A stretch of 14,609 nt of DNA from Janthinobacterium lividum (GTDB lineage: Bacteria > Pseudomonadota > Gammaproteobacteria > Steroidobacterales > Steroidobacteraceae), in contig CALPVO020000019.1 of assembly GCA_943327025.2 (NCBI GenBank), positions 1 through 14,609 on the forward strand. The letters are read 5' to 3'. Shown piece by piece: positions 1,303-14,609 of this stretch. The notes under the pieces are model-generated. The model was not told where the DNA came from. It made no database searches and saw nothing but the letters and a program-made list of their open reading frames with translations. The position numbers and the translations under genes were made by a program. Every line of letters begins with the position of its first letter. Position 1 is the stretch's first letter.

Positions 1303-1347
1303 GATGGGGCAAGGTTACCGAAGCGCGCCGCCGCGGTCATCGAGAAT

Positions 1348-2679
1348 TCAGCCGCGCAAGCGGGCAACCCAGTCTGCCGCGGTTTCACGCAGGGCGGCGG
1401 ACGTCAGCGGCCCACCCGCCATACCCGCCACCAACTCACCTTCACGAACCCGCTGCTCGCCGCGCACCCAGACGTGGCGCACTTGCTCACGCCCCGCCAC
1501 GTACACCAGATGCGACACCGGGTCGAACACCGGCTGTAACGCCGGGGCATTCAAGTCGACCGCGATGAAATCCGCGCTCTTGCCCGGCATCAGTGAGCCC
1601 GTCTCCGCGCCCAGCCCCAGCGCTTCAGCGCCCCCCAAGGTCGCCGCGCGCAACGCCGCTTGGGCCGGCCAAACCGCGGCGTCACCGGCGACTGCCTTGG
1701 CCAGCAAAGCCGCCAAGCGCAGTTCGGCGAACAAATCGAGACGGTTGTTACTCGCCGCGCCATCGGTACCTAGGCCAACGTTAATGCCCGCACGCGAGAG
1801 CACGCCGACTGGAGCGAAGCCCGACGCCAGTTTCAAGTTCGAGGTCGGGCAATGCGCCACGTGCACCTTGCGCCGCGCCAGTAGTTCAGTATCTGCCGCG
1901 TCGAGATGGACCGCATGCACAGCAATGAAGTTCGGACCCAAAACACCGAGGCGCTCGAGGCGAGCCAGCGGCCGCTCACCCGTAGCAGATACAGCGGTAC
2001 TCACTTCCTCCGCGGTCTCATGCACGTGGCAATGCACCGGCAAGCCTTCGCGCTGCGCCACGGCGGCCACTTGCGTGAACAAGGCGTCGCTCACCGTATA
2101 CGGCGCGTGCGGCGCCAGCGCAAAGTGCGCCAGCGGCTCGCCGACGAATGCGGCGCGCGTGGCCAAGCCGCGGCTCAGTGCCGTAGCGGCGTCTGGGGCA
2201 TAGGGCGTGGGAAAGTCCACCGCCACGATGCCCGCCACCACGCGCATTCCGGATTCCACGGCCGCCTGACAAACCGCTTCCGGGAAGAAGTACATGTCGT
2301 TGAAGGTGGTGATGCCCCCGAGCAACATCTCGGCGCAGGCGAGCCGCGTGCCATCCAGCACGAACGCCGCCGACAAGTGCCGCGCTTCAGCCGGCCAGAT
2401 ATGGCCCTTCAGCCATTCCATGAGCGGCAGGTCGTCCGCATAGCCACGCAGCAAGGCCATGGCCGCATGCGTATGCAGGTTCACCAGGCCCGGCAGCAAC
2501 ACCTGCCCAGGAAGTTCCACCACACGTAACCCGGCGTACTGGCGCCGTGCCTCGGCGGCTGGCAACAGCGTCTGAATACGCCCATCCCGCACCACCACCG
2601 CGTGGTCTGCCAAGGCGCCTGCTGGCTCGATGGGGACCACCCAGGACGCGATCACGACGAAATCGGCAGCAACAGACAT
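1348..2679 (-). CDS. mtaD: 5-methylthioadenosine/S-adenosylhomocysteine deaminase (TRZ/ATZ-type amidohydrolase)
   Basis: The 443-residue product is a full-length metal-dependent amidohydrolase. Visible landmarks are the LLPGLVNLHTHAAM strand with metal ligands H69 and H71, the HCHVHET segment (residues 216-222), AVHAVHL (254-259), HCPTSNLKLASG (276-287) and GLGTDGAASNN with the catalytic metal-binding Asp D306. The C-terminal strand GSLMPGKSADFIAVDL is typical of the cytosine-deaminase/TRZ-ATZ group. Family members deaminate methylthioadenosine and S-adenosylhomocysteine to the inosine forms, part of methyl-cycle salvage in the cytoplasm. Related deaminases act on other purines or triazines, so the substrate is family inference. 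The frame stays open upstream to 3225, but that stretch lies antisense to ompW; MSVAADF at 2679 matches the usual family N-terminus. An in-frame GTG directly before it is an alternative start. It is divergent from ompW and followed by the aminotransferase. Confidence 0.85.
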   Translation of the reverse strand: MSVAADFVVIASWVVPIEPAGALADHAVVVRDGRIQTLLPAAEARRQYAGLRVVELPGQVLLPGLVNLHTHAAMALLRGYADDLPLMEWLKGHIWPAEARHLSAAFVLDGTRLACAEMLLGGITTFNDMYFFPEAVCQAAVESGMRVVAGIVAVDFPTPYAPDAATALSRGLATRAAFVGEPLAHFALAPHAPYTVSDALFTQVAAVAQREGLPVHCHVHETAEEVSTAVSATGERPLARLERLGVLGPNFIAVHAVHLDAADTELLARRKVHVAHCPTSNLKLASGFAPVGVLSRAGINVGLGTDGAASNNRLDLFAELRLAALLAKAVAGDAAVWPAQAALRAATLGGAEALGLGAETGSLMPGKSADFIAVDLNAPALQPVFDPVSHLVYVAGREQVRHVWVRGEQRVREGELVAGMAGGPLTSAALRETAADWVARLRG

Positions 2680-2749
2680 CACGAATTTCCACGGGCCAGG
2701 GTCGCTGCGATTCTGCGGCTTCCTGCGGCGAACGCCAACCCGCGTCGCG

Positions 2750-2791
2750 CCAAGCGAAACACGCAGGGGGAAGCTGCGGATATTCGCTTGG
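2750..2791. promoter_or_regulatory. Nested inverted repeat / two-tier stem-loop between mtaD and ompW
   Basis: CCAAGCGAA at 2750-2758 is the exact reverse complement of TTCGCTTGG at 2783-2791. Inside it a second perfect pair, CGCAG (2762-2766) and CTGCG (2774-2778), encloses the 7-nt loop GGGGAAG. The two stems are separated by small internal loops (3 and 4 nt). The element lies in non-coding DNA between divergent genes, so coding constraint does not explain it. It could be a regulator-binding site, part of a structured ompW leader, or (reverse strand) part of the mtaD leader. No T-run follows, so a simple intrinsic terminator is unlikely. Confidence 0.5.
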
Positions 2792-2808
2792 TGGTGTACG
2801 GCACACCA
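2792..2808. promoter_or_regulatory. 17-bp dyad TGGTGT-N5-ACACCA, possible operator
   Basis: Perfect 6-bp arms TGGTGT (2792-2797) and ACACCA (2803-2808) flank the spacer ACGGC. The dyad directly abuts the nested repeat to its left and sits 46-62 bp before the ompW ATG, and 113-129 bp before the mtaD start on the other strand. Size and position suit a dimeric HTH repressor or activator site controlling one or both divergent genes. The regulator is unknown, and a role as an RNA hairpin is equally possible. Confidence 0.4.
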
Positions 2809-2816
2809 TGGAACTG

Positions 2817-2832
2817 CCCGCGAACTGGCGGG
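2817..2832 (+). promoter_or_regulatory. Small hairpin in the ompW leader
   Basis: CCCGC (2817-2821) pairs with GCGGG (2828-2832) around the loop GAACTG. It ends 10 bp before the AGGA ribosome-binding sequence of ompW (2843-2846). It may be a leader or mRNA-stability hairpin. With a 5-bp stem in GC-rich DNA, chance is possible. Confidence 0.25.
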
Positions 2833-2853
2833 TGAAGTAGACAGGATTCCCCC

Positions 2854-3546
2854 ATGACCCTTTCCAGCGCCGTAAAGCGTTCCCTGAAAATTCGACTGGC
2901 ACCGGCCGTGCTGGCCCCCCTGTTGGGCGCGCTGCTCACTCTGGCCATGCAGCCCGCGGTGGCCAGTGATGGAGCCTCCCCTTGGACCGTGCGCGTTCGC
3001 GCCTTGCACATCCACCCGGCCAGCAAGTCCGATGCCATCCCCTCGCTGGCAGTTCCCACTGACAGCATCAGCGCCTCCAAGAAGTGGGCGCCGGATATCG
3101 ATATCGAATATGCGTTCAACGAGAAGGTATCCGCCGAGTTGCTCCTGACCGTACCGCAGCAGCACACCGTGACCGTGCGCGAAAGTGTGCTCGGTGGCCC
3201 GGTGAATATCGGCACCTTCCGGCATCTGCCGCCAACGCTCACCGTGAAGTACCGCCCGCTGGGCAGTGCCACCCTTTCACCCTACGTCGGTGTAGGCCTG
3301 AACTACACGCGTATCTGGGATGCCCGACTGGCCGTCCCCACGGTAGGCAGCCTGCGTCTGGACCAGAGCAGTTTCGGCTTGGCGTGGCAAGTCGGTGCGG
3401 ATTACCAGCTCGACGACCACTGGTCGGCGTCCGTGGATCTGAAGTACGTGAAGATTGGCTCAGACGTCAAACTCGGCGCCACGCGCGTCTCGCACGTCAA
3501 CGTGGATCCGGTGCTGGTGGCCTTCGGTGCAGGCTATAGGTTCTGA
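2854..3546 (+). CDS. ompW: OmpW family outer-membrane beta-barrel protein
   Basis: The 230-residue product has a basic, hydrophobic signal peptide ending in AVA, with predicted cleavage after A37. The mature protein of about 193 residues fits the 8-stranded OmpW barrel. Features include a WTVRVRALHIHP first strand, PDIDIEYAFNEKVSAELLL, PPTLTVKYRPLG, LSPYVGVGLNYT, an amphipathic WSASVDLKYVKI strand, and a C-terminal VAFGAGYRF ending in phenylalanine, the usual outer-membrane assembly signal. OmpW proteins form narrow hydrophobic channels for small, often nonpolar, molecules. The start is supported by AGGA at 2843-2846. It is divergent from mtaD and lies about 100 bp before the catabolic operon. 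It could supply outer-membrane passage for that operon's substrate, but nothing in the sequence proves the link, and it may be transcribed separately. Confidence 0.85.
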   Translation: MTLSSAVKRSLKIRLAPAVLAPLLGALLTLAMQPAVASDGASPWTVRVRALHIHPASKSDAIPSLAVPTDSISASKKWAPDIDIEYAFNEKVSAELLLTVPQQHTVTVRESVLGGPVNIGTFRHLPPTLTVKYRPLGSATLSPYVGVGLNYTRIWDARLAVPTVGSLRLDQSSFGLAWQVGADYQLDDHWSASVDLKYVKIGSDVKLGATRVSHVNVDPVLVAFGAGYRF

Positions 3547-3613
3547 ATCCAGTCGTACTCATACAACTAAATGTCGCTCTAAGGCTATTTTAGTGACCGC
3601 CTGACGTGCAATC
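3547..3613 (+). promoter_or_regulatory. Gap between ompW and the MFS gene; likely holds the operon promoter
   Basis: This is the AT-richest stretch near the start of the eight-gene operon, with TACAACT and CTATTTTAG-like segments that could serve as -10 elements. No convincing -35/-10 pair was found. An imperfect dyad occurs at 3573-3597 (GTCG plus CTAA against TTAGTGAC, with a 2-nt bulge and a G-T pair), which could be a weak operator or the end of the ompW transcript. The promoter assignment rests mainly on position. Confidence 0.3.
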
Positions 3614-3647
3614 ATCCCCCGACGGGCCGTTCCGGCCTGCGGGGGAT
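3614..3647 (+). promoter_or_regulatory. Strong stem-loop covering the ribosome-binding site of the MFS gene
   Basis: ATCCCCC (3614-3620) is the exact reverse complement of GGGGGAT (3641-3647), and inside it GGCCG (3625-3629) pairs with CGGCC (3633-3637) around the loop TTC. The right arm contains the only Shine-Dalgarno-like sequence (GGGGGA) before the ATG at 3651, so folding would hide the ribosome-binding site of the first operon gene. This suggests translational control (protein binding, temperature, a ligand or a small RNA), though the purpose is not shown. No T-run follows, so it is not a typical terminator. Confidence 0.5.
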
Positions 3648-3650
3648 GGC

Positions 3651-4982
3651 ATGAACGAACGAGCTTCTTTTCCCTACGAGGAAGCGCCCCTCCGGCCCTT
3701 CCATATGCGCGTGACGGTCGCCAGTTTCGGCGGCGTCTTCTGCGACGGCGCTGAACTCGGCATCGTCGGCATGGCGCTCGGCGCGGCCACGCCGGCCCTC
3801 GGCCTCACCCCTGTTTGGGTAGGACTACTAGGCGGAGCCTCGCTGCTCGGCTTGTTCCTCGGCGCTCTCCTGACCGGTCCCGTGGCGGACCGGCATGGGC
3901 GCCGTCCCCTGTTCGCTTGGAACATGCTTCTGCTCGGCTTGGTCTCGATGGCACAGTTCTTCGTGCAGTCGCCGACACAGCTCCTGGTAGCGAGGCTGCT
4001 GATCGGCGTGCTGCTCGGCACGGACTACGTGGTCAGCAAAGCGCTGTTGACGGAGTTCATCCCCGGACGCCACCGCGCGGGCATCATGAGTTCCCTCGCC
4101 GTGGCTTGGGCTAGCGGCTATGCCGCCGCCTATGCGGCAGGCTATGGCATCACCCACATCGACTCTTTCGCGGGCAGCGATCTGTGGCGCTTCATGCTGC
4201 TTGCCAGCGCGATTCCCTGCCTGCTCATCTTCCCGTTGCGTGTGACGCTGCCCGAGTCGCCGATGTGGCTAGCGGCGCAGGGACGAAACCAAGAGGCCCA
4301 CGACATCGTCCGCCGGCATATCGGCGAGGATGTGCAACCGCCACCGCCGCTCGTCAAGCCGCCGCGTGACCGCCGGCATCTCGCGGAGCTGATGTCCGCG
4401 CCTTGGGGCCGGCGCACGCTGGTAGCCTGCACCTATTTCACCACCAGCGTCATTCCATACTTCGCTATCGGTACATTCGTCAACCAAGTCCTGCAGGACC
4501 TCAAGGTAGAGGGTGCGGCCGCAGCGGGCTTGGTCTACAACCTCGCTATCGTGCTCGGCGCCATCGGCGGCTTGCTAACGATCGACCGCATGCCAAGGCG
4601 CACCTTCCTGAATGGCACTTACTTGCTGTCGGGTGGTGCCATGCTGGCGCTGGTGGTACTCGATCATCCACCCACCTTTGTCTCGGTGGCTTTGTTCGCG
4701 GTATTCGCCAGCGTGCTTTCGGCGTCGTCGAATCTCGTCTACGTCTATCTGCCGGAACTGTTCCCGACTTCACTGCGCGCTTCCGGTCTCGGGCTGGCCA
4801 TCGCTTCGAGTCGCGTCGGTTCGGCGGTCAGCACCTTCCTGCTGCCCATCCTGGTCGGCAGCTTCGGCATTCACGTGGCCTTGGGCGCTTGCGTCGCGGT
4901 GCTCGCGTTAGGTGGCATCACCTGCTACCTGCTCGCTCCGGAAACGCGTGGCCTCGGGCTGGCGGGTGACGCTTCCGCATGA
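3651..4982 (+). CDS. MFS transporter, metabolite/sugar porter-like (12 predicted TM)
   Basis: The product is 443 residues from ATG 3651, the usual size for a 12-TM major facilitator. Key motifs are GPVADRHGRR between TM2 and TM3 (residues 76-85), LPESPMWL after TM6 (200-207), and YLPELFPTSLRA in the second half (366-377), all typical of the sugar-porter and metabolite:H+ symporter branches. An acidic pair (D32, E35) lies in the predicted first membrane segment and may take part in proton coupling or cation binding. An earlier in-frame GTG (3606) is less likely: it would place the hairpin inside the coding region and add a non-conserved leader, whereas GGGGGA fits the ATG. The stop overlaps the next start by 4 bp. 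As first gene of an amine-catabolism operon it probably imports an N-methylated compound or its product; the substrate is unknown. Confidence 0.85.
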   Translation: MNERASFPYEEAPLRPFHMRVTVASFGGVFCDGAELGIVGMALGAATPALGLTPVWVGLLGGASLLGLFLGALLTGPVADRHGRRPLFAWNMLLLGLVSMAQFFVQSPTQLLVARLLIGVLLGTDYVVSKALLTEFIPGRHRAGIMSSLAVAWASGYAAAYAAGYGITHIDSFAGSDLWRFMLLASAIPCLLIFPLRVTLPESPMWLAAQGRNQEAHDIVRRHIGEDVQPPPPLVKPPRDRRHLAELMSAPWGRRTLVACTYFTTSVIPYFAIGTFVNQVLQDLKVEGAAAAGLVYNLAIVLGAIGGLLTIDRMPRRTFLNGTYLLSGGAMLALVVLDHPPTFVSVALFAVFASVLSASSNLVYVYLPELFPTSLRASGLGLAIASSRVGSAVSTFLLPILVGSFGIHVALGACVAVLALGGITCYLLAPETRGLGLAGDASA

Positions 4983-6010
4983 AGCCAGACCGGCCCATTC
5001 GGCTGGCTTTCCTGCTGCTGCCGCAGTTCTCGATGATGGCTTTTTCGGCAGCTCTAGAGCCATTGCGCGCCGCGAACCGCCTAGGCGGACGCCAACTCTA
5101 CGACTGGCGCTTGGTCTCGAATGACGGTCAAGCCGTGACTGCCAGCAATGGCATCGCCATCGCCGTGAACGACAGTCGCGACACACTCAAGCAACCGGAC
5201 CTGCTGGTGGCTTGCGTCGGGCTGGAGCCGCTCGATGCCTCGGCCAACACGTCGCTACGCGGGTGGTTGCGACGACTGGCGGGCCATGGCTGCCAAGTGG
5301 GCGGCATCAGCGGTGGCGCCTTTCTGCTGGCCGAAGCCGGTCTACTCGAAGGCAAGCGCTGCACGGTGCACTGGGAGTTCGCCGAACTGTTCGCAGCCCG
5401 CTATCCGCGTGCGCGCCTCGTACCCGATCTCTTCGTCGCCGATGAAGGGGTATTCACCTGCTCAGGCGGCACAGCAGCGTTGGACCTCATGCTCCACTTC
5501 ATTCGGGAGCACCATGGCGTGGAAATGGCTGTGGCTGTGGCGGAGCAATTCATCCACCCCCGCATACGCGAGCACGGCGACCGGCAACGCATGACACCGG
5601 ACCGCCGGTACGGACTGCAACACCCGAAGTTGTCAGCCATCGTGGAACGCATGGAAGCCACTTTGGCCGAACCGCTGGAACTGGCAGAAATCGCGGCCGC
5701 CGCCGACCTGTCGACGCGCCAAGTAGAGCGACTATTCCGCAAGTACCTCGGCAGTGCACCGGCGACGTTCTATCTGGACCTGCGACTCGTCCACGCCCGG
5801 CACTTGCTTCGGGAAACGGCCAAGCCGGTCCGCGCCATCGCTCTCGACTGCGGGTTCGGATCGACCTCGCATTTCTGCCACGCGTATCGCCGCCACTATG
5901 GCTACAAGCCCACGGACGAACGCAAGTCGCTCCGCGCCACTACCGCCCGCCATTCTCTGTCGCCCGCCGTCAGCCACAAGTCGGTGGCAGGCAAACCCGC
6001 CTACGCCTGA
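4979..6010 (+). CDS. GlxA-family transcriptional regulator (DJ-1/PfpI domain plus AraC HTH), GbdR/SouR/CdhR-like
   Basis: The 343-residue product has a DJ-1/PfpI-like sensor domain (about residues 7-190) and two AraC-type helix-turn-helix units (about 231-256 and 283-308: LAEIAAAADLSTRQVERLF and IALDCGFGSTSHFCHAYRR). The segment GGISGGAFLLAEAGLL (108-123) followed by CTVHWE matches the regulators GbdR, SouR and CdhR, which sense glycine betaine/dimethylglycine, sarcosine and carnitine in Pseudomonas. The position of the DJ-1 nucleophilic cysteine is Ser/Gly, so the domain should bind a ligand rather than catalyse. CSGGTAALDLML (161-172) is another group signature. It overlaps the MFS stop by ATGA, implying translational coupling, and lies upstream of methylamine genes. 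It is probably the cytoplasmic activator of this operon, induced by the substrate or by dimethylglycine/sarcosine. The exact effector cannot be read from sequence. Confidence 0.88.
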   Translation: MKPDRPIRLAFLLLPQFSMMAFSAALEPLRAANRLGGRQLYDWRLVSNDGQAVTASNGIAIAVNDSRDTLKQPDLLVACVGLEPLDASANTSLRGWLRRLAGHGCQVGGISGGAFLLAEAGLLEGKRCTVHWEFAELFAARYPRARLVPDLFVADEGVFTCSGGTAALDLMLHFIREHHGVEMAVAVAEQFIHPRIREHGDRQRMTPDRRYGLQHPKLSAIVERMEATLAEPLELAEIAAAADLSTRQVERLFRKYLGSAPATFYLDLRLVHARHLLRETAKPVRAIALDCGFGSTSHFCHAYRRHYGYKPTDERKSLRATTARHSLSPAVSHKSVAGKPAYA

Positions 6011-6040: not shown

Positions 6041-7885
6041 ATGAACCAGTCGCCCACCACTGTTCTCGCTCGTCTCTACGGTCTGCTGCTAGGCGGCATC
6101 CTTGTGGCGAGCCCGTTTCCCGCGGGCAACGCCTTGGCAGCGAACCTCTCCGCTGCGACCGTCTTGCCGTCAAGCAACTTGCTGCGGGAAGACGTACCCG
6201 CAGCACCCGTCGACAATGGTGCCTTTGCGCCTGGCAAGGGCGCACGCTCTGCTCCAGCATTCGCCGGCGTACTGCAGTTGTCAGCAGCAACGCTACAAGC
6301 GAAGCCCACGCTCAAAAATCAGGTCATCGATGGTCGCGATGCGCTGCGCTTCCCCGAGTTGTCCCTGGAGTTCGTAACGCTTGGCGACACATTGGTGCCG
6401 GTGCAACGCGGCAAGATGGTGCGCGAAACGCGGGCTGGTGCTCGGGCCAGTTACTGGCGGCTCATCCCGCAGTTCGGGCGTGTCTGGCAAGAAAAGGCAG
6501 ATGGCAGTTGGTCCCGCGCTGCTTTTCCACTCATGCTCGTGAACGACACGGAAAACCACGCCCATCAGGGCCTGGCTACTTTCCTCTACCGCGGCAAGCA
6601 GGTCAGCGGACTGCGGGTGCAGTTCGTGCAGCAAACCGCGCCTTGGCTACTCAGCCCGCACACCGTGCTGTGGGCACAAGTGCCAGCCACTTTCGCCGCT
6701 GGCGATGCCGCACAACTCGCAGCACGGCGGGAAGAGGCGCGCGCCGAGTTGGCAGCGCGACTGCCGACGAAACCCTTGGACGACCTGCGCGCGCAATTTC
6801 CCGCAGGTACGCTCGATGGTTTCGGCGGCCCGGTGCTGCCAAAGTGGCAAGTATCGCGCGCCATCTTCAAGGAAGGCACGCTCTATTACGAGGCGGAGAA
6901 CACGGCTTACGGCCCTTACCCTTATCCGCTCGAAATGCGTTACGGCGTCCGCTCCGTCACGAAGACCGTTACCGCCGCACTCTCGTTACTGCATCTCGCG
7001 GAAATCTACGGCCCTTACGTCCTTGATTTGAAAATCGGCGACTACGTGCCCGGCGCGGACCCGCACTGGAAGAAGGTGCGGTTCATCGATGCGGCGAATA
7101 TGTCGAGCGCCTATGGCGGTGTGGGCTCGCTCATTACGCACCCCAACGACAATGGCAGCGGCTATCTGGAAAACGACTACAACGGCTGGTACACGGCACC
7201 GTCTGTAGCCGACAAGCTCGAGCACATGCGCACCCACCTGAAGCCCTATCCTTGGGAGCCGGGCCGCGTGATGCGCTATCGCGACCACGATTTCTTCATG
7301 CTCGGCCTGGCCGTCGATGGCTTCGTCAAAGCCATGCGCGGGCCGCAGGCCGATGCGTGGAACATGGTCGCGGAAGAAGTACTACGCCCTATCGGCATCT
7401 TCCATGCACCACTGGTGCGCACTCGCGAGCTCGGCGGGCAGGATGGCCCAGCGTGGTTCAGCGCGGGCTATTACCCGACGCTGGACGACCTCGCGAAAAT
7501 TGCCCTGTTGTTTCAGGACCATGGTGCTCACGCAGGCAAGCAGTTGCTGCATCGCCGCCTGACCGAGGCCGTGCTCGCAGCGCGTGACGCCTTGGACAAG
7601 GACGGCGACGGCTCGGATGGCTTGCCCGTGGTACGCGACGGCGAGAAGCCCGCCAACCTTTACCGCATGGCTTTCCACTTCACGCCCCTCACAGGTTCCG
7701 CTTCGGGCAAGCGTCATTATCTGCCCACGCTGTCCGGCTACGGCGAGAACATCGTGACGCTCTTTCCCGGCCGCATCGTCTCTATCCGTACCGCAAAGGT
7801 CGGCGAGATACCGCAAGGCGAGCAAGCAGAGGCAGGGCCCGATGACATGAGCGACCGCGCTGTCGAGCGCCTGGCACCCTTCTAA
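6041..7885 (+). CDS. Exported beta-lactamase-related serine hydrolase
   Basis: The 614-residue product has a signal peptide with basic and hydrophobic regions and an ALA cleavage motif (after A33), so it is probably periplasmic. The C-terminal two thirds looks like the class C beta-lactamase/esterase fold (PF00144 type): SVTK (S305 nucleophile, K308) in RYGVRSVTKTVTAALSLLH, a YRDHDFFMLG segment with Y413 and D415 where YxN is usual, and a late SGYGENIVTLFPG segment where the KTG-like strand is expected. The N-terminal 270 residues are unassigned. DKDGDGSDG (519-527) resembles a DxDxDG calcium loop. The family includes esterases, D-amino-acid amidases and peptidases; few are true beta-lactamases. 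Gaps of 30 bp before and 28 bp after place it inside the operon, suggesting it frees an N-methylated amine from an ester or amide before import. The substrate is unknown. Confidence 0.8.
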   Translation: MNQSPTTVLARLYGLLLGGILVASPFPAGNALAANLSAATVLPSSNLLREDVPAAPVDNGAFAPGKGARSAPAFAGVLQLSAATLQAKPTLKNQVIDGRDALRFPELSLEFVTLGDTLVPVQRGKMVRETRAGARASYWRLIPQFGRVWQEKADGSWSRAAFPLMLVNDTENHAHQGLATFLYRGKQVSGLRVQFVQQTAPWLLSPHTVLWAQVPATFAAGDAAQLAARREEARAELAARLPTKPLDDLRAQFPAGTLDGFGGPVLPKWQVSRAIFKEGTLYYEAENTAYGPYPYPLEMRYGVRSVTKTVTAALSLLHLAEIYGPYVLDLKIGDYVPGADPHWKKVRFIDAANMSSAYGGVGSLITHPNDNGSGYLENDYNGWYTAPSVADKLEHMRTHLKPYPWEPGRVMRYRDHDFFMLGLAVDGFVKAMRGPQADAWNMVAEEVLRPIGIFHAPLVRTRELGGQDGPAWFSAGYYPTLDDLAKIALLFQDHGAHAGKQLLHRRLTEAVLAARDALDKDGDGSDGLPVVRDGEKPANLYRMAFHFTPLTGSASGKRHYLPTLSGYGENIVTLFPGRIVSIRTAKVGEIPQGEQAEAGPDDMSDRAVERLAPF

Positions 7886-7913: not shown

Positions 7914-9455
7914 ATGGCTATTTCCTCCCCACGGAAGCGCGAAGGATCGCGTCCTCGTCGCGCTACCGGCGGCGCCCTGCCCCAGTTGCCGTGGACCGAC
8001 GTGCAGAACCCATACCCACCGATGGAGCTGCTTTCCGCAGCACAAGTGGAGGCCATCCATCAAGCCTCTCTGCGCATCCTTGGCGAGCTCGGTATCGAAC
8101 TGATGTCACCGGCAGCACGCGACGCTATGCGTATTTATGGAGCCGAAGTCGATGAGATCACCGGGACGGTGCGTTTCGGTGCCGACGTATTGGCAAAGGC
8201 GCTCGAGACAGTACCTTCAGCGTTCACGTTGACACCACGAAACCCAGCGCATCGCGTGACTTTGGGCGGCAGCCATCTCGTCTTTGGTCTCGTAGCCGGG
8301 CCACCGAATGTACATGACTGCCTGCGCGGTCGCCGCCCGGGTAACCATGAGGACTACTGCAATTTCATCAAGCTGGCTCAGCACTTCAATGCCATCCACG
8401 TCATTGGCAATCAGGTCTGCGCGCCAGTAGAGCTGCCGGCCGGGACGCGTCATCTCGATACTTACCTCGCGAATCTCGTGTATTCGGACCGTGCCTACCA
8501 CTGCACTGCCATCGGCGCGGGCCGCGCTCTGGACGGCATCCGCATGATGGCCATTGCCCGTGGCCACACGCTCGAACAAATGGCGGCAGAGCCCGGCGTC
8601 ATCACCATCATCTCGGTGAATAGTCCACGTCGCTTCGACGACGCCATGGCGGATGGCCTCATGGCCATGGCGCAACATGGTCAGCCCGTGGTCATTACCC
8701 CGTTCACGCTCATGGGTGCCATGGCGCCGGTGACCCTTGCCGCGGCATTGGCGCAGCAAAACGCCGAAGCGCTGTTCGGCATGGTGTTGGCGCAAGCGGT
8801 GCGCCCCGGTGCCCCGGTCATGTATGGCGCCTTCACCTCAAACGTGGATTTACGTTCGGGTGCCCCAGCCTTCGGTACCCCCGAAAACGCCAAGGCCAAT
8901 GTGGCCAGTGGCCAGCTCGCGCGCTACTACGGCCTGCCTTACCGCACTTCCAATGCCAGCGCCTCGAACGTTGCAGACGCACAAGGTGCCTACGAAACCC
9001 AGATGTCGCTCTGGGGAGCAGTGCTCGGTGGCGCCAATCTGGTTTACCACGCAGCGGGTTGGCAGGAAGGTGGTCTCACCGCGTCCTACGAAAAGCTGGT
9101 GCTCGACGTAGAGATGCTGCAGCTGATGATGGAGTTCCTGAAACCCATTCAGGTGGACGACGAGGAACTGGGACTCGACGCCATTGCCCGTGTGCCCACC
9201 GGCGGACACTTCTTCGGCGACGCCCACACGCTACAGCGCTACGAGCACGCCTTCTACCAGCCGCTAGTATCCGACTGGCAAAGCCATGGCAACTGGGAAC
9301 TCGCTGGCGCCAAAGATGCCACGCAACGCGCTACCGACGTCTGGCAACGCGCCTTGAACGAATACGAACAGCCACCCATGCCGGCGGAGATTCGCGCGGA
9401 GCTTGAGGCTTACGCAACACAACGCCGCGCCGCCATCGGCGCCGGCGAACCCTGA
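7914..9455 (+). CDS. MttB-family (COG5598) trimethylamine/quaternary-amine methyltransferase without pyrrolysine
   Basis: The 513-residue product covers the whole MttB-type TIM barrel. A basic N-terminus and LPWTDVQNPYPP lead into QVEAIHQASLRILGELGIEL. Strongly typical segments are RGRRPGNHEDY, NSPRRFDDAMADGLMAMA, GQPVVITPFTLMGAMAPVTL, MYGAFTSNVDLRSGAPAFG (303-321) and YETQMSLWGAVLGGANLVYHAAGW. Archaeal MttB has an in-frame UAG for pyrrolysine; this frame has no in-frame stop, so it belongs to the non-Pyl group. Characterised members (for example MtgB of Desulfitobacterium) move a methyl from glycine betaine or similar quaternary amines to a corrinoid. No corrinoid protein is encoded in this window. 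With a dimethylglycine-type oxidase and sarcosine oxidase directly downstream, glycine betaine or a related betaine is the likeliest substrate (inference). The ATG follows the hydrolase stop by 28 bp. Confidence 0.9.
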   Translation: MAISSPRKREGSRPRRATGGALPQLPWTDVQNPYPPMELLSAAQVEAIHQASLRILGELGIELMSPAARDAMRIYGAEVDEITGTVRFGADVLAKALETVPSAFTLTPRNPAHRVTLGGSHLVFGLVAGPPNVHDCLRGRRPGNHEDYCNFIKLAQHFNAIHVIGNQVCAPVELPAGTRHLDTYLANLVYSDRAYHCTAIGAGRALDGIRMMAIARGHTLEQMAAEPGVITIISVNSPRRFDDAMADGLMAMAQHGQPVVITPFTLMGAMAPVTLAAALAQQNAEALFGMVLAQAVRPGAPVMYGAFTSNVDLRSGAPAFGTPENAKANVASGQLARYYGLPYRTSNASASNVADAQGAYETQMSLWGAVLGGANLVYHAAGWQEGGLTASYEKLVLDVEMLQLMMEFLKPIQVDDEELGLDAIARVPTGGHFFGDAHTLQRYEHAFYQPLVSDWQSHGNWELAGAKDATQRATDVWQRALNEYEQPPMPAEIRAELEAYATQRRAAIGAGEP

Positions 9456-9461
9456 ACCTCT

Positions 9462-9466
9462 AAGGA
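9462..9466 (+). promoter_or_regulatory. Ribosome-binding site AAGGA fixing a GTG start
   Basis: AAGGA ends 7 nt before GTG 9474. The nearby ATG at 9484 is out of frame, and translation from GTG gives KTHARVVVIGGGVVG, placing the FAD-binding glycine loop at the usual distance from the N-terminus. This decides the start of the following gene. Confidence 0.7.
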
Positions 9467-9473
9467 ATTACGC

Positions 9474-11900
9474 GTGAAGACACATGCACGAGTCGTAGTC
9501 ATTGGCGGCGGCGTCGTTGGTTGCTCGGTCCTCTACCACCTGGCCAAGTTCGGCTGCACCGACGCCGTGCTGCTCGAGCGCGACGAACTGACTTCCGGCT
9601 CCACCTGGCACGCTGCGGGCGGCATGCACACTATTAACGGTGATCCGAATGTCGCGAAGCTGCAGAAATACACCATTGATCTCTACCAAGAGATTGAAGA
9701 CCTTTCCGGTCAAGCCACAGGACTACACCTGACGGGCGGCGTCATGCTGGCAGCCACCGAAGCCCGCTTCGAGTGGCTCAAAGGTCTCGCCGCCAAGGGC
9801 AGTTATCTCGGTATCGAAGCGCGCATCATCACGCCAGAGCGCGCCCATGAGCTGATGCCGCTGCTGGACCCTTCCTGCTTCGTGGGCGCACTGGAAACCG
9901 TAGTGGATGGCCACCTCGATCCTTCCGGCACCACACATGCCTATGCGAAGGCGGCCCGCAAGCTTGGCGCCGAAATCGAACGCTTCACCAAAGTGGAAGA
10001 GTTGGTGCAGTGCGCCGACAAAACCTGGCGCGTCATCACCAACAAGGGCGAGATTCGTGCCGAGCATGTGGTGAACGCCGGCGGCTTGTGGGCCCGCGAG
10101 GTGGGGCACATGGTGGGCCGGGAACACCCAGTGCTGGCTATGGAGCACATGTACCTCATCACGGAAGACATGCCGGAAGTCGCAGCCATCAATGCCGCTA
10201 CCGGCAAGGAGGTCTACCACGCCGTGGACTTCGACGGCGAACTCTACTTACGCCAAGAGCGCGGCGGCATGCTGATGGGCACTTACGAAAAGGCCGGCAA
10301 GCCCTGGTCCGAGCACAGCACGCCCTGGAGCTTCGGCCACGAACTGCTAACCCCCGACATCGAACGCATCGCCCCCAGCCTGGAAGTAGGCTTCCGGCAT
10401 TTCCCAGCGTTCCAGAATGCCGGTATCCGCAAGATCGTGAACGGCCCCTTCACCTTTGCTCCGGACGGTAACCCGTTGGTGGGCCCCGTACGCGGCCTGC
10501 AAGGCTATTGGTGTGCTTGTGGCGTCATGGCAGGCTTCAGCCAAGGCGGCGGTGTCGGCCTCGCGCTGGCGCAATGGATTTTGAATGGCGACCCGGGCTT
10601 CGATGTCTGGGCCATGGACGTGGCACGCTTCGGCGACTGGGCCAGCAAGGCCTACACCAATGCCAAAGTCCGCGAGAACTACTCCCGGCGTTTCTCCATT
10701 CGTTTCCCCAACGAGGAACTGCCTGCGGGCCGACCGCTGCGCACCTCGCCTATTTACGACCGCTTGCGCTCGCGTGGTGCCCAGTTTGGTGCGGCCGCGG
10801 GCCTCGAAGTGCCGCTTTGGCTGGCACCGGAAGGCGTGCGTGACGAATTCAGCTGGCACCGCTCGACCGACTTCGACACAGTGGGCGAAGAAGTTCGCGC
10901 GGCGCGCTGCAGCGTCGGCCTTTCGGAAACTACCGGCTTCGCGAAGTACCGAGTAACGGGCCCCGGCGCTGCCGCGTGGTTGGACCAAATGCTCGCATGC
11001 CGTCTGCCAGCACCAGGACGCATGGTGCTCGCGCCCATGCTGAAGGAAGACGGCAAACTCATCGGCGACTTCACCCTCGCCAATCTAGGTGCCGAAGGCT
11101 GGTTCATCATCGGCTCAGGTCTCGCAGAGGAATACCACCTGCGCTGGTTCACTCAGCATTTGCCGGAAGACGGCTCAGTGCAGGTCACCAGTGAAACCGC
11201 CACCATGGCGGGGCTTGCCATCGCCGGGCCGCGATCACGCGAGTTGCTGGCCCGCATAACGCACGAACCCGTCGACAACGCCTCGTTCCGCTTTATGGAT
11301 ATCCGCCGCATGGCGGTCGGCATGGCGACGGCATTGGTGGGCCGCGTCAGCTACACCGGCGACCTCGGGTACGAGCTTTGGTGCAGTCCCGGGCATCAGT
11401 TGCACCTGTTCGAGGCCATCGAAGCGGCTGGCGCCGACCTCGGTCTACGCTTCTTCGGTTCGCGCGCCTTGAATTCCCTGCGCGTGGAAAAGGCCTACGG
11501 CTCGTGGGCCCGCGAGTACCGCCCCGTCTACGGCCCTCTCGAAGCGGGTCTCGACCGGTTCGTCGCCTACGACAAGCCAGCCGCTTTCATCGGGCAGGCC
11601 GCCGCCCGGGAAGAGCTCGTTACCGGCGGCAAGCGCCGGCTGCGCACGTTCATCGTCGATACGCAGCGGACCGATGTCATTGGTGACGAGCCAGTGTGGC
11701 ACGGCGAAAAAGTCTGTGGCTGGATCACTTCAGGCGGCTATGCACACGCGAGTGGCGTTTCCGTGGCGCTGGGCTATGTAGAGAAGGAATTGGCTGACAG
11801 TGAAGGTCCGTGGTCCATTGAAATTCTCGGACAACGTTTCCCAGCACGGCTGCAACGCGTACCCTTGTTCGACGCCGACGGCAAGCGTCAGCGCGGTTGA
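9474..11900 (+). CDS. FAD-dependent oxidoreductase fused to GcvT domain (dimethylglycine/sarcosine dehydrogenase-like)
   Basis: The 808-residue product has the two-part layout of dimethylglycine and sarcosine dehydrogenases. Residues 5 to about 370 form a DAO-type FAD domain starting VVVIGGGVVGCS. A linker (about 375-430) carries ENYSRRFSIRFPNEELPAGRPLRTSPIYDR. The GcvT folate-binding domain and its C-terminal barrel fill the rest (about 437-800), including GRVSYTGDLGYE (623-634). STWHAAGG (43-50) holds H46, equivalent to the histidine that carries covalent FAD in mammalian dimethylglycine dehydrogenase. The family oxidises an N-methyl group and passes the carbon to tetrahydrofolate as methylene-THF. 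It starts with GTG 18 bp after the methyltransferase and precedes soxBDA, so dimethylglycine to sarcosine is the most natural step. Sarcosine or another secondary or tertiary methylamine remains possible. Electron acceptor (oxygen or ETF) is not evident. Confidence 0.9.
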   Translation: MKTHARVVVIGGGVVGCSVLYHLAKFGCTDAVLLERDELTSGSTWHAAGGMHTINGDPNVAKLQKYTIDLYQEIEDLSGQATGLHLTGGVMLAATEARFEWLKGLAAKGSYLGIEARIITPERAHELMPLLDPSCFVGALETVVDGHLDPSGTTHAYAKAARKLGAEIERFTKVEELVQCADKTWRVITNKGEIRAEHVVNAGGLWAREVGHMVGREHPVLAMEHMYLITEDMPEVAAINAATGKEVYHAVDFDGELYLRQERGGMLMGTYEKAGKPWSEHSTPWSFGHELLTPDIERIAPSLEVGFRHFPAFQNAGIRKIVNGPFTFAPDGNPLVGPVRGLQGYWCACGVMAGFSQGGGVGLALAQWILNGDPGFDVWAMDVARFGDWASKAYTNAKVRENYSRRFSIRFPNEELPAGRPLRTSPIYDRLRSRGAQFGAAAGLEVPLWLAPEGVRDEFSWHRSTDFDTVGEEVRAARCSVGLSETTGFAKYRVTGPGAAAWLDQMLACRLPAPGRMVLAPMLKEDGKLIGDFTLANLGAEGWFIIGSGLAEEYHLRWFTQHLPEDGSVQVTSETATMAGLAIAGPRSRELLARITHEPVDNASFRFMDIRRMAVGMATALVGRVSYTGDLGYELWCSPGHQLHLFEAIEAAGADLGLRFFGSRALNSLRVEKAYGSWAREYRPVYGPLEAGLDRFVAYDKPAAFIGQAAAREELVTGGKRRLRTFIVDTQRTDVIGDEPVWHGEKVCGWITSGGYAHASGVSVALGYVEKELADSEGPWSIEILGQRFPARLQRVPLFDADGKRQRG

Positions 11901-11926
11901 CCCAAGGCACGCAGGTACCTCCTTTC

Positions 11927-13183
11927 ATGGCGCGACGCTATTCCCTTCTGTCATTGCTGGCGGGCGCACTCCGTGGCCGCAGCTATTGGCAGCCGGCATG
12001 GCGCGACGCGGAGCCGAAAGCAGGTTACGACCTCGTCATCGTGGGCGGTGGTGGGCACGGCTTGGCCACGGCTTACTATCTGGCGCGCGTCCACGGCCTG
12101 CGCAATATTGCGGTGGTGGAGAAAGGCTGGATAGGCGGCGGCAACGTTGGCCGCAATACCACCATCGTCCGTTCGAATTACCTGCTGCCGGGCAATGTGC
12201 CGTTCTACGAACAGTCCATGCAACTATGGGAAAGCCTTGAGCAGGAACTGAACTACAACGCCATGGTGAGCCAACGCGGCGTGCTGAACCTGTTCCATAG
12301 CGATGCGCAACGAGATGCGGCGGTACGCCGCGGCAACGCCATGCGCTTGCACGGCGTGGATGCTGAACTGCTCGACGCCCGCGACGTACGGCGTCTCTAC
12401 CCGTCATTCGATTTCGACAACGCGCGGTTCCCCATCAAAGGTGGCCTGCTACAGCCACGCGGTGGCACCGTGCGCCATGACGCCGTGGCCTGGGGCTACG
12501 CACGCGCCGCCAGTGCACTGGGCGTCGATGTCATCCAAAACTGTGAAGTGACTGGCATAAGCCATGACGATGCGGGCGTGCAGGGTCTCGAAACCACCCG
12601 TGGCTTCATCGCCGCGCAGCGCGTTGGCCTGGCCTGCGCCGGCAACACCTCGCGGGTGGCCGCGCTGGCCGGCCTGCGCTTGCCGCTGGAAAGCCATGTG
12701 CTGCAGGCCTTCGTCTCCGAAGCCTTGAAGCCACTCATTCCCGGCGTGGTCACCTTCGGCGCCGGCCATTTCTATCTCAGCCAGTCGGACAAGGGCGGGC
12801 TGGTTTTCGGCGGAGATATCGACGGCTACAACTCCTACGCGCAGCGCGGCAATCTGCCAACGCTCGAAGATGTCTGCGAAGGCGGCATGGCCCTGCTGCC
12901 GGCCTTGGGGCGCGTACGCTTATTGCGCAGTTGGGGCGGCGTGATGGACATGTCCATGGATGGGTCGCCCATCATCGACAGCACGCCCATTGAGGGGCTC
13001 TACCTGAACGCCGGTTGGTGCTATGGCGGCTTCAAAGCCACGCCGGCCTCGGGGTGGTGCTTTGCGCATTTGCTGGCCACGGGGCGCTCGCACGAGAACG
13101 CTGCGGCATACCGCCTCGACCGGTTCGCCGCGGGGCGCATGGTAGACGAAAAGGGCCAAGGGCCCTTTCCCAACCGGCACTGA
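11927..13183 (+). CDS. soxB: Sarcosine oxidase subunit beta (heterotetrameric)
   Basis: The 418-residue product closely follows the beta subunit of heterotetrameric sarcosine oxidase: MARRYSLLSLLAGAL at the N-terminus, YDLVIVGGGGHGLATAYYLA (FAD loop, residues 34-53), EKGWIGGGNVGRNTTIVRSNY, NYNAMVSQRGVLNLFHS, and NAGWCYGGFKATPASGW near the C-terminus. H184 in GGTVRHDAVAW lies where the family carries the covalent FMN histidine (alignment inferred). The complex oxidises sarcosine to glycine with oxygen, giving H2O2 and, with THF, methylene-THF; beta holds FAD and shares FMN. The frame opens at a TTG (11897) overlapping the previous stop, but MARRYS is the usual family start, so ATG 11927 was chosen, 26 bp after the previous gene. 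An AGG lies 11 nt upstream, inside the palindrome AGGTACCT (11913-11920). Confidence 0.93.
   Translation: MARRYSLLSLLAGALRGRSYWQPAWRDAEPKAGYDLVIVGGGGHGLATAYYLARVHGLRNIAVVEKGWIGGGNVGRNTTIVRSNYLLPGNVPFYEQSMQLWESLEQELNYNAMVSQRGVLNLFHSDAQRDAAVRRGNAMRLHGVDAELLDARDVRRLYPSFDFDNARFPIKGGLLQPRGGTVRHDAVAWGYARAASALGVDVIQNCEVTGISHDDAGVQGLETTRGFIAAQRVGLACAGNTSRVAALAGLRLPLESHVLQAFVSEALKPLIPGVVTFGAGHFYLSQSDKGGLVFGGDIDGYNSYAQRGNLPTLEDVCEGGMALLPALGRVRLLRSWGGVMDMSMDGSPIIDSTPIEGLYLNAGWCYGGFKATPASGWCFAHLLATGRSHENAAAYRLDRFAAGRMVDEKGQGPFPNRH
13150..13168 (+). repeat. Perfect 8-bp hairpin at the soxB-soxD junction
   Basis: AAAGGGCC (13150-13157) and GGCCCTTT (13161-13168) are exact reverse complements around AAG. 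The element encodes EKGQGPFP at the tail of soxB and ends 23 bp before the soxD ATG. Only three T residues follow the stem before CC, so it is a poor terminator. It could be an mRNA-processing or stability hairpin that tunes expression of subunits, or coincidence. Confidence 0.4.
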
Positions 13184-13191
13184 ACCCAAGC

Positions 13192-13452
13192 ATGCTCATT
13201 CCTTGCCCCTACTGCGGTCTGCGGAGCCACGAGGAGTTCACCACGCTCGGTGAAGCCGGCCGCGTACGCCCGTCCGGTGAAGACGTTCAAGCTTTTGCCG
13301 ACCATGTGTACTTGCGCAACAACGTCGCCGGATGCCATCGCGAGCTGTGGTTCCATGCGGCGGGCTGCCATGCTTGGTTGACCGTGGAACGTGACACCTT
13401 GACGCACGCGATTCATGGCGCGTGGCCAGTCAACGAAGCGCCGGCGCCATGA
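13192..13452 (+). CDS. soxD: Sarcosine oxidase subunit delta (zinc-binding)
   Basis: The 86-residue protein has the normal size of the delta subunit. It begins MLIPCPYCGLRSHEEFT and contains GCHRELWFHAAGCHAWLTVERDT. Zinc ligands are visible as C5, C8, H55 and C59, matching the Cys-x2-Cys and His-x3-Cys pattern of the crystallised heterotetrameric enzyme. The subunit is structural and helps pack the complex in the cytoplasm. It starts 8 bp after the soxB stop and its own stop overlaps the soxA start (ATGA). The frame remains open further upstream inside soxB, but the CPYCG motif needs to lie at the N-terminus, so ATG 13192 is the start. The Shine-Dalgarno is weak, suggesting coupling to soxB translation. 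Confidence 0.93.
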   Translation: MLIPCPYCGLRSHEEFTTLGEAGRVRPSGEDVQAFADHVYLRNNVAGCHRELWFHAAGCHAWLTVERDTLTHAIHGAWPVNEAPAP

Positions 13453-14609
13453 ACCTCAAGCCACAGCCCTTCCGCCATGTTGCTGGCGGTCTCATTGATC
13501 GCAGCACCACCGTGCCGTTTCAATTTGATGGGCATACCTATTACGGGCATGCCGGTGACACCTTGGCCTCGGCACTGCTGGCCAACGGCGTGCGCTTGCT
13601 CGGTCGGTCCTTCAAATACCATCGTCCGCGCGGACTGCTGGCTGCCGGTTCGGAAGAACCCAACGCCCTCGTTGAATTGCGCACCGGTGCGCGACGCGAA
13701 CCCAATACTCGCGCCACCGTCGTCGAACTCTTCGAGGGGCTGGAAGCACGGAGCCAAAATCGTTGGCCGTCGCTGCAGTTCGACCTTGGCTCCGTCAATG
13801 GCTTGCTCGCGCCGCTCTTTGGCGCGGGCTTTTACTATAAGACTTTCATGTGGCCAGCCGCGTTCTGGGAACGCGTCTACGAGCCTCTCATTCGCCGCGC
13901 TGCGGGTCTCGGCCGTGCCGCGACGGAAGAAGACCCGGACAGCTATGAAAAGGCCTGGGCGTTCTGCGACCTGCTGGTGGTCGGTGGCGGCGAGACGGGC
14001 TTGCGTGCAGCGCTCGAAGCAGGCCGTCGTGGCGAACGCGTCATCGTCGCCGACGAAGACTTTCGCTTCGGTGGGCGGTGCTTAGCGGAAAGCGTGCCAG
14101 TCGAGGGATTGTCAGGCGCGCAGTGGGTAAACCAAATACTCCAGGCCTTGGCAGGCCTACCTGAAGTCGTGCTGATGCCACGAACTACCGTATTCGGCGC
14201 CTACGATAGCGGCGTCTATGGCGCACTGGAACGCGTCAGCGACCACTTACCGAAGCCACTTCCCGGTCAGCCGCGGCAAAGACTGTGGCGCATCATCGCG
14301 AAACGAACCGTACTCGCTACCGGCAGCATTGAACGGCCCTTGGTCTTTGGCGACAACGACCGCCCCGGCGTCATGCTCGCTGGCGCCGTACGCACATATC
14401 TCAATCGTTACGCCGTCTTGCCGGGCGAATGCGCGGTGGTCTACGCCGACAACGACAGCGGCGAAGCAACAGCGGCGGATCTGCGCGCGGCCGGCATCAA
14501 AGTCGCTGCCGTGGTGGATACCCGGCGCGGTGCCAGCGTGGTACGCGCCCTGGGTGGCAACGCACTGCGCGCTGTGGAGATACGCGAGGGAAGCCGCACG
14601 CGGCGCATC
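13449..14609 (+). CDS. soxA: Sarcosine oxidase subunit alpha (5' part; truncated by window edge)
   Basis: 387 codons are visible; family members are close to 1000 residues, so over half lies outside the window. The N-terminus has the ferredoxin-like domain of this family (FQFDGHTYYGHAGDTLASALL, then GRSFKYHRPRGLLAAGSEEPNA), which lacks the iron-sulfur cysteines here as expected. The region ASVNGLL-type onward leads to FGAGFYYKTFMWPA and the NAD-binding Rossmann loop VVGGGETGLRAALEAG (G179-G184); E-T replaces the commoner P-A in this loop. AKRTVLATGSIERPLVFGDNDRPGVMLAG (around residues 283-311) is the second nucleotide-fold signature. The missing part should carry the GcvT-like folate domain. 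Its ATG overlaps the soxD stop by 4 bp. Together with soxB and soxD it identifies the sarcosine oxidase operon; soxG is expected downstream. Confidence 0.93.
   Translation, partial: MNLKPQPFRHVAGGLIDRSTTVPFQFDGHTYYGHAGDTLASALLANGVRLLGRSFKYHRPRGLLAAGSEEPNALVELRTGARREPNTRATVVELFEGLEARSQNRWPSLQFDLGSVNGLLAPLFGAGFYYKTFMWPAAFWERVYEPLIRRAAGLGRAATEEDPDSYEKAWAFCDLLVVGGGETGLRAALEAGRRGERVIVADEDFRFGGRCLAESVPVEGLSGAQWVNQILQALAGLPEVVLMPRTTVFGAYDSGVYGALERVSDHLPKPLPGQPRQRLWRIIAKRTVLATGSIERPLVFGDNDRPGVMLAGAVRTYLNRYAVLPGECAVVYADNDSGEATAADLRAAGIKVAAVVDTRRGASVVRALGGNALRAVEIREGSRTRRI

Follow-up and report, generated by a model that had tools for sequence, protein, structure and literature searches.

An MttB-type methyltransferase subfamily with an altered predicted pocket, encoded ahead of genes for dimethylglycine dehydrogenase-type and sarcosine oxidase-type enzymes in a Steroidobacteraceae genome

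Aerobic demethylation of glycine betaine by a corrinoid system, MtgBCD, was published in 2025 for Ruegeria pomeroyi (PMC12478193). According to this report, the mtgC and mtgD mutants did not grow on glycine betaine and were methionine auxotrophs, the mtgBCDE genes of Sinorhizobium meliloti lie together, and carriers often hold several pfam06253 genes, for which further substrates were suggested. In Eubacterium limosum, an anaerobe, several MttB proteins with separate substrates (MtpB, MtcB, MtyB, and MthB) are described, and all of these except MthB have one corrinoid protein, MtqC, in common (PMC12155760). We investigated an MttB-type gene at 7914–9455 (+) of a 14,609-bp stretch of DNA (the window), which is the whole of contig C19 (CALPVO020000019.1) in a 2.38-Mb metagenome-assembled genome (MAG) of the Steroidobacteraceae given as 75% complete. 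An earlier reading made from the sequence alone (the sequence-only reading) noted that the characterised non-pyrrolysine MttB enzymes work in anaerobes with a corrinoid protein. The R. pomeroyi report has made this picture outdated, and demethylation by a corrinoid MttB can no longer count as new for an aerobe. Unlike that of E. limosum, the setting of this operon is probably aerobic, as the sequence-only reading had proposed; the MAG and a genome of the same genus (G010) both carry genes for haem-copper oxidases. What remains new is the subfamily to which the window protein belongs, here called S1, with its changed predicted pocket and its own finishing enzymes.

The open reading frame (ORF) at 7914–9455 encodes 513 residues and contains no internal stop. 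The single Pfam family matched is PF06253 (MTTB), with 654 bits against a cut-off of 25 over residues 12–509, and the protein is thus a member of the MttB superfamily. Identity with the pyrrolysine-containing trimethylamine methyltransferase was rejected because TIGR02369 gave 310 bits against a cut-off of 525 and the frame has no internal stop. A one-residue gap falls at the column of Pyl334, and the protein differs from the pyrrolysine MttB (7xcl) in lacking this residue. In the structural alignment, it is 30% identical to DhMtgB of Desulfitobacterium hafniense (2qne, 9yce) and 22% identical to 7xcl. The predicted model (predicted local distance difference test score, pLDDT, 68; predicted template modelling score 0.75) served for fold comparison alone. 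A 100% identical protein was found in the uncultured proteobacterium bin ErkenSummer_bin-2631. Among the literature matches listed, in which subscription journals are thinly covered, there was no paper on the S1 subfamily and none on the 9yce structure.

In a tree of 79 proteins, obtained by a quick search with long branches and with Shimodaira–Hasegawa-like approximate likelihood ratio test (SH-aLRT) support only, S1 forms a separate clade (SH-aLRT 100). The other types are represented by the MttB proteins on contigs C131 (S2), C252, and C194 of the MAG and by the clade of PDB entry 4yyc from S. meliloti, which we take to be the MtgB of that organism; two half-length proteins of the MAG included in the tree do not overlap each other. 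We collected 86 distinct S1 loci after dropping three duplicate records; in 20 of them, the contig ends no more than 3 kb away. Of 583 loci found, the named ones are the 80 most similar, and therefore the sample leans to close relatives. Across these best 80 loci, S1 is kept at an identity of at least 65% in both Alpha- and Gammaproteobacteria, and it also occurs on rhizobial and Roseobacter plasmids.

A docking study of DhMtgB proposed Tyr94, Asn199, Arg309, and His345 as contacts for glycine betaine and Phe/Tyr353 as a further aromatic residue (PMC6855144). We mapped these positions, a set predicted by docking, on a common alignment. The window protein has Ala, Ser, Arg, and His at the four proposed contacts, a set that differs from the predicted MtgB pocket. 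In two overlapping sets of S1 proteins, 89 from the loci and 120 from the database, Ala takes the place of Tyr94 without exception and Ser that of Asn199 in 89 and 119, respectively; Arg309 and His345 are retained in all proteins of both sets. Among 120 relatives of DhMtgB, in contrast, Tyr, Asn, Arg, and His are present in 120, 119, 120, and 120 proteins, respectively. The window protein differs from DhMtgB also at Leu344, Lys318, and Phe353; the first two are Tyr and Asn in S1. Tyr94 is also lost in the C252 type (Gly) and the C131 type (Ser), and none of the four residues is present in the C194 type. The known quaternary-amine substrates of the superfamily carry a carboxylate or, for MthB, a phosphate, and the authors of the choline study suggested that the acid group is a key binding determinant (PMC12155760). 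Because Arg and His are retained and Tyr94 and Asn199 are replaced, the predicted S1 pocket reads as one in which the acid anchor is kept and the ammonium cage is rebuilt. We therefore consider it reasonably probable that the S1 protein is a demethylase for an acidic N-methyl compound which feeds a shared corrinoid hub in trans. Ordinary glycine betaine is probably not this compound, because Tyr and Asn are lost in S1 and a different MttB subfamily is linked to the hub.

The window encodes no corrinoid protein, as the sequence-only reading had noted, and the four places in the MAG with B12-binding domains are all on other contigs. The best of them is on contig C109, where a 237-residue protein (5013–5723) has both corrinoid-protein domains, B12-binding and B12-binding_2, above their cut-offs. 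Its best NCBIfam model is NF047996 (MtgC), reached at 214 of 370 bits, and the protein is of the MtgC type described for the aerobic MtgBCD system. It belongs to a hub operon (3–5723) with the order mtgC–DUF1638–metV–metF–mtgD–ramA, in which the partner domains DUF1638, DUF5981, MTHFR, Pterin_bind, and RACo identify candidates for MtgD, MetF2, RamA, and the DUF1638 protein; MetV is the name used here for the protein with the C-terminal domain of methylene-tetrahydrofolate reductase. One of the two possibilities left by the sequence-only reading, that the corrinoid protein and the second methyltransferase are encoded elsewhere, is thus borne out, and the puzzle posed by the isolated mttB gene is in the main solved by a corrinoid system present in trans. 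The contig ends inside ramA. In G010, the corresponding sequence continues past ramA, and an mttB gene of the 4yyc clade follows in convergent orientation; a hub-linked mttB of the MAG itself is presumed to lie beyond the end of C109.

The MAG resembles the R. pomeroyi system, with its split methionine synthase, MtgBCD(E), in having a PF06253 MttB together with MtgC, MtgD, MetF2, RamA, and DUF1638 in an aerobe. Further likenesses are the absence of MetH from many carriers and the several MttB paralogues per genome. The window MttB differs from that system in that it belongs to a separate subfamily with an altered pocket, lies away from the hub, and is accompanied by its own dimethylglycine dehydrogenase (DMGDH), SoxBDA, and hydrolase. 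From the observed gene content, operon layout, hub genes, co-occurrence, and clade and residue patterns, we infer the substrate class, the sharing of one hub by several MttB proteins, and each of the following reactions. The S1 MttB would move the first methyl group from an acidic quaternary amine onto the cob(I)alamin of MtgC, and MtgD would pass it on to tetrahydrofolate. The MetF2-type proteins would oxidise methyl-tetrahydrofolate, and the RamA-type protein with DUF1638 would re-reduce the corrinoid. The remaining N-methyl groups would be removed oxidatively, in a folate-linked manner, by the DMGDH-type flavoprotein and SoxBDA(G).

The distribution of the hub was followed in 97 genomes of the order, namely 96 that are at least 80% complete and the MAG itself, with an MtgC orthologue defined by at least 280 bits and 56% identity. 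MttB is present in 38 genomes, MtgC in 35, and both in 34; that is, MtgC accompanies MttB in 34 of 38 genomes and occurs in 1 of the 59 others (G062; Fisher p = 1.5e-20, with shared ancestry ignored here and below). The sequence-only reading had also raised free cobalamin or folate as the direct methyl acceptor of an MttB working without a corrinoid protein. Such a reaction would agree with the methylation of free cob(I)alamin by Methanolobus vulcani MtgB in vitro (PMC6855144), with the 86 S1 loci, none of which has an MtgC match in the 6 kb on either side, and with the four MttB-bearing genomes that lack an intact MtgC match (G039, G043, G075, and G092). However, G039, G043, and G092 are drafts given as 88–90% complete, and the absence in G075 may be an assembly effect, because this genome carries MtgC pieces, two of them at contig starts (C46 and C66). 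Moreover, no Pfam family other than MTTB was matched by the protein. Since MtgC co-occurs with MttB, we have set this acceptor aside as extremely unlikely. Because none of the 86 S1 loci is near mtgC, the use of this MtgC by S1 rests on co-occurrence and precedent. In G075, the mtgC pieces are spread over contigs C19, C33, C43, C46, and C66 of that genome, some near MttB genes, and perhaps represent several copies broken in assembly.

Methionine synthesis shows a related pattern. The MetH activation domain (PF02965) is missing in 18 of the 38 MttB genomes and in 4 of the 59 others (p = 7e-6). In the window's family, of which 13 genomes were sampled, six of the seven genomes with MttB lack it and none of the six without MttB does (p = 0.005); it was found neither in the 75%-complete MAG nor in G010. 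This loss of MetH with MttB is the pattern reported for marine genomes (PMC12478193). In the six family genomes lacking MetH, the MetE model found nothing in four, including G010, and short pieces of 19–24 bits in the MAG (two pieces, 19–20 bits) and G090. Each of the six has at least one PF02574 protein with a frame much shorter than that of MetH. In the MAG, this is one protein of 298 residues, and both MtgE and a stand-alone betaine-homocysteine methyltransferase would fit it. Bmt of P. inhibens transfers a methyl group from betaine to homocysteine in vitro (PMC12366255), a result at odds with the model of PMC12478193.

In relatives, it is the 4yyc clade that neighbours the hub: mttB, mtgC, DUF1638, mtgD, and ramA lie together, and several of these hubs also contain metV/metF and another DMGDH gene (DMGDH3) with sox genes. 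Tyr, Asn, Arg, and His are all retained in the ten hub-linked MtgB proteins. Five of the ten loci (L138–L142) had been fetched because their MttB is near MtgC; therefore, the fair measure of linkage is an unselected count of 60 MttB matches of at least 36% identity, from which weaker matches and the fragments of G077 were excluded. An MtgC orthologue lies within 15 kb in 0 of 5 S1 matches, 3 of 17 S2-like matches, and 18 of 38 matches in the class of 36–42% identity, which includes the 4yyc and C252 types. The MAG itself holds four PF06253 places. Besides the window, contig C131 carries the C-terminal half of an MttB at a contig end; two DMGDH-type genes, separated by an AraC-like ORF, come after it. 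Contig C252 carries an N-terminal half whose gene diverges from neighbours resembling soxB and soxA, which were named by eye and from their G010 counterparts. The MttB on C194 (locus 873–5361) is full length, and its gene lies between one of the DMGDH type and another that by eye encodes an aldehyde dehydrogenase; this type, which lacks the four proposed pocket residues, probably acts on another substrate class.

The observations that weigh against the interpretation of S1 as a hub-fed demethylase for another acidic substrate deserve attention. The pocket residues were proposed by docking only, and position 353 is Gly in S1 and the hub-linked clade alike. Not one S1 gene is close to mtgC, as stated above, and G010 carries MtgC and five MttB matches without any S1. 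None of the four MttB proteins of the MAG, as far as it is complete, belongs to the hub-linked clade. Finally, a GbdR-like regulator, DMGDH, and SoxBDA would equally be expected of a glycine betaine operon. Several of these points favour the route proposed in the sequence-only reading, in which the window MttB is the MtgB of the cell: glycine betaine would be converted to dimethylglycine by MttB and MtgC and then, via sarcosine, to glycine by DMGDH and SoxBDAG. The DMGDH and soxBDA genes lie directly downstream of mttB and the regulator gene upstream, the pocket Arg and His are retained in S1, and two R. pomeroyi PF06253 proteins, known here as family members only, are reported to rise on glycine betaine (PMC12478193). 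However, the equivalents of Tyr94 and Asn199 are replaced throughout S1, while the clade of 4yyc keeps all four residues and adjoins mtgC. Several relatives encode a separate DMGDH3 close to the hub, and the alphaproteobacterial S1 genes are found among genes of other kinds, described below. The pocket residues and the hub linkage thus indicate another paralogue, and we regard the glycine betaine route as rather unlikely for the window MttB.

The GbcAB Rieske route of Pseudomonas would be expected to use these downstream enzymes too and likewise has a GbdR-like regulator. Unlike in that route, no protein reaches the curated GbcA score of 670 in the MAG (best score 131) or its 96 relatives, including G010, which is given as 100% complete (124). 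GbcA was thus not detected in the MAG, as far as its 75% completeness allows, but the same search recovered GbcA in 0 of 14 control genomes and thus has no positive control. Nearly full-length GbcA-like proteins below the cut-off occur in G075 (417 bits) and G090 (400 bits).

The gene calls of the sequence-only reading, a non-pyrrolysine MttB ahead of a GcvT-fused flavoenzyme and soxBDA, were confirmed by the ORF, Pfam, and NCBIfam results. The flavoprotein (9474–11900, +, GTG start) has the domains DAO, FAO_M, GCV_T, and GCV_T_C of the DMGDH family and scores 571 bits to the dimethylglycine dehydrogenase 4p9s. It was considered as a means of fixing the substrate, which was dropped: DMGDH2 on C131 scores 605 bits and the cut DMGDH3 508 bits to 4p9s, so these scores do not separate the three, and the substrate is not fixed by the flavoprotein. 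The SoxB-type flavoprotein (11897–13183, +), of the beta subunit family of heterotetrameric sarcosine oxidase, passes its NCBIfam cut-off (TIGR01373, 683 bits against 529). The SoxD-type delta subunit (13192–13452, +) passes the Pfam cut-off (PF04267, 97 bits against 27) but falls below that of NCBIfam (TIGR01374, 96 bits against 116.5). The SoxA-type alpha subunit (13422–14609, +; Fer2_4) is cut by the contig end within its N-terminal part, and its TIGR01372 match (547 bits) spans model positions 5–359 of 996. No soxG is found in the window, and the contig ends within soxA; SoxG was found elsewhere in the MAG, on C295 (51.5 bits), with a weaker piece on C80.

The genes from mttB to soxA fit one operon because the gaps between them are only 18, −4, 8, and −31 bp. 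They form the end of a co-directional block which begins with a major facilitator superfamily (MFS) transporter gene at 3606 and continues with an AraC-family regulator and a serine hydrolase. Because the gaps that follow these three genes are −4, 30, and 28 bp, the operon may start further upstream than mttB, where the sequence-only reading had it begin. The layout also bears on whether MttB is a bystander or a non-catalytic homologue, with the flavoenzymes alone using imported tertiary amines. Of the 86 loci, 61 have a DMGDH or SoxB homologue no more than 6 kb from S1. The 25 without either would suit a bystander; contig ends lie within 3 kb in 20 of the 86. Against it stand the 18-bp spacing to the flavoprotein gene, the invariance of Arg344 and His379 in the aligned S1 proteins, and the conservation of S1 across two classes; we judge this explanation very unlikely.

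The genes around S1 differ among lineages. In Roseobacter and rhizobial loci, S1 is found with genes for MmgE/PrpD, 2-hydroxyacid-dehydrogenase-type, hydantoinase A/B, and racemase-like proteins and aminotransferases, and also with oligopeptide transport or M24 peptidase genes. Such gene sets do not resemble those of a simple glycine betaine operon, yet they name no substrate. In L104, L105, and other Roseobacter loci, for example, S1 mttB is part of a catabolic cluster that also encodes MmgE/PrpD, an aminotransferase, hydantoinase A/B, and an arylmalonate-decarboxylase/racemase-like protein. On pSymA of S. meliloti 1021, an S1 protein of 67% identity is encoded at 812258–813733, a region without a listed gene.

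The hydrolase encoded upstream of mttB (6041–7885, +) has 614 residues and is of the beta-lactamase/penicillin-binding protein type, with a PF00144 match (E 4e-6, 26.5 bits) just below the cut-off of 27. An SxxK motif and a signal-like start were recognised by eye, and it looks secreted. Its N-terminal half has no Pfam match, and its predicted structure has a pLDDT of 47. Such a hydrolase is directly upstream of S1 mttB and co-directional with it in 9 of the 86 loci and within 6 kb in 14. It could act on an ester or amide to release an acidic betaine. We tentatively extend this to S1 as an uncharacterised subfamily of Alpha- and Gammaproteobacteria that acts on an acidic N-methyl compound other than glycine betaine, at somewhat less than even confidence: in the form seen in the window, a secreted hydrolase would free the acid, a cation transporter would import it, S1 would pass one methyl group to a shared corrinoid hub, and a private DMGDH and SoxBDA would take off the others.

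The transporter (3606–4982, +) matches MFS_1/Sugar_tr and is of the organic-cation or metabolite:H+ symporter type, with TIGR00895 (169 bits) and TIGR00898 (166 bits) both below their cut-offs. The regulator (4979–6010, +; DJ-1/PfpI and HTH_18) is GbdR-like only, since it reaches 324 of the 480 bits required by NF052371 (GbdR). Elsewhere in the window, positions 1–2754 (−) encode a class III aminotransferase (PRK07046) and a TRZ/ATZ-type hydrolase, and 2854–3546 (+) a small protein of outer-membrane type by eye. Scans of the window found no promoter (2.2 expected) and eight terminators, fewer than the 9.4 expected.

S1 is a defined target for further work, being a conserved subfamily of Alpha- and Gammaproteobacteria in which the predicted pocket is changed and flavoenzyme genes of its own are often close by. 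If the proposed role is correct, aerobes would plug a series of MttB heads into a single B12 hub which also makes their methionine.

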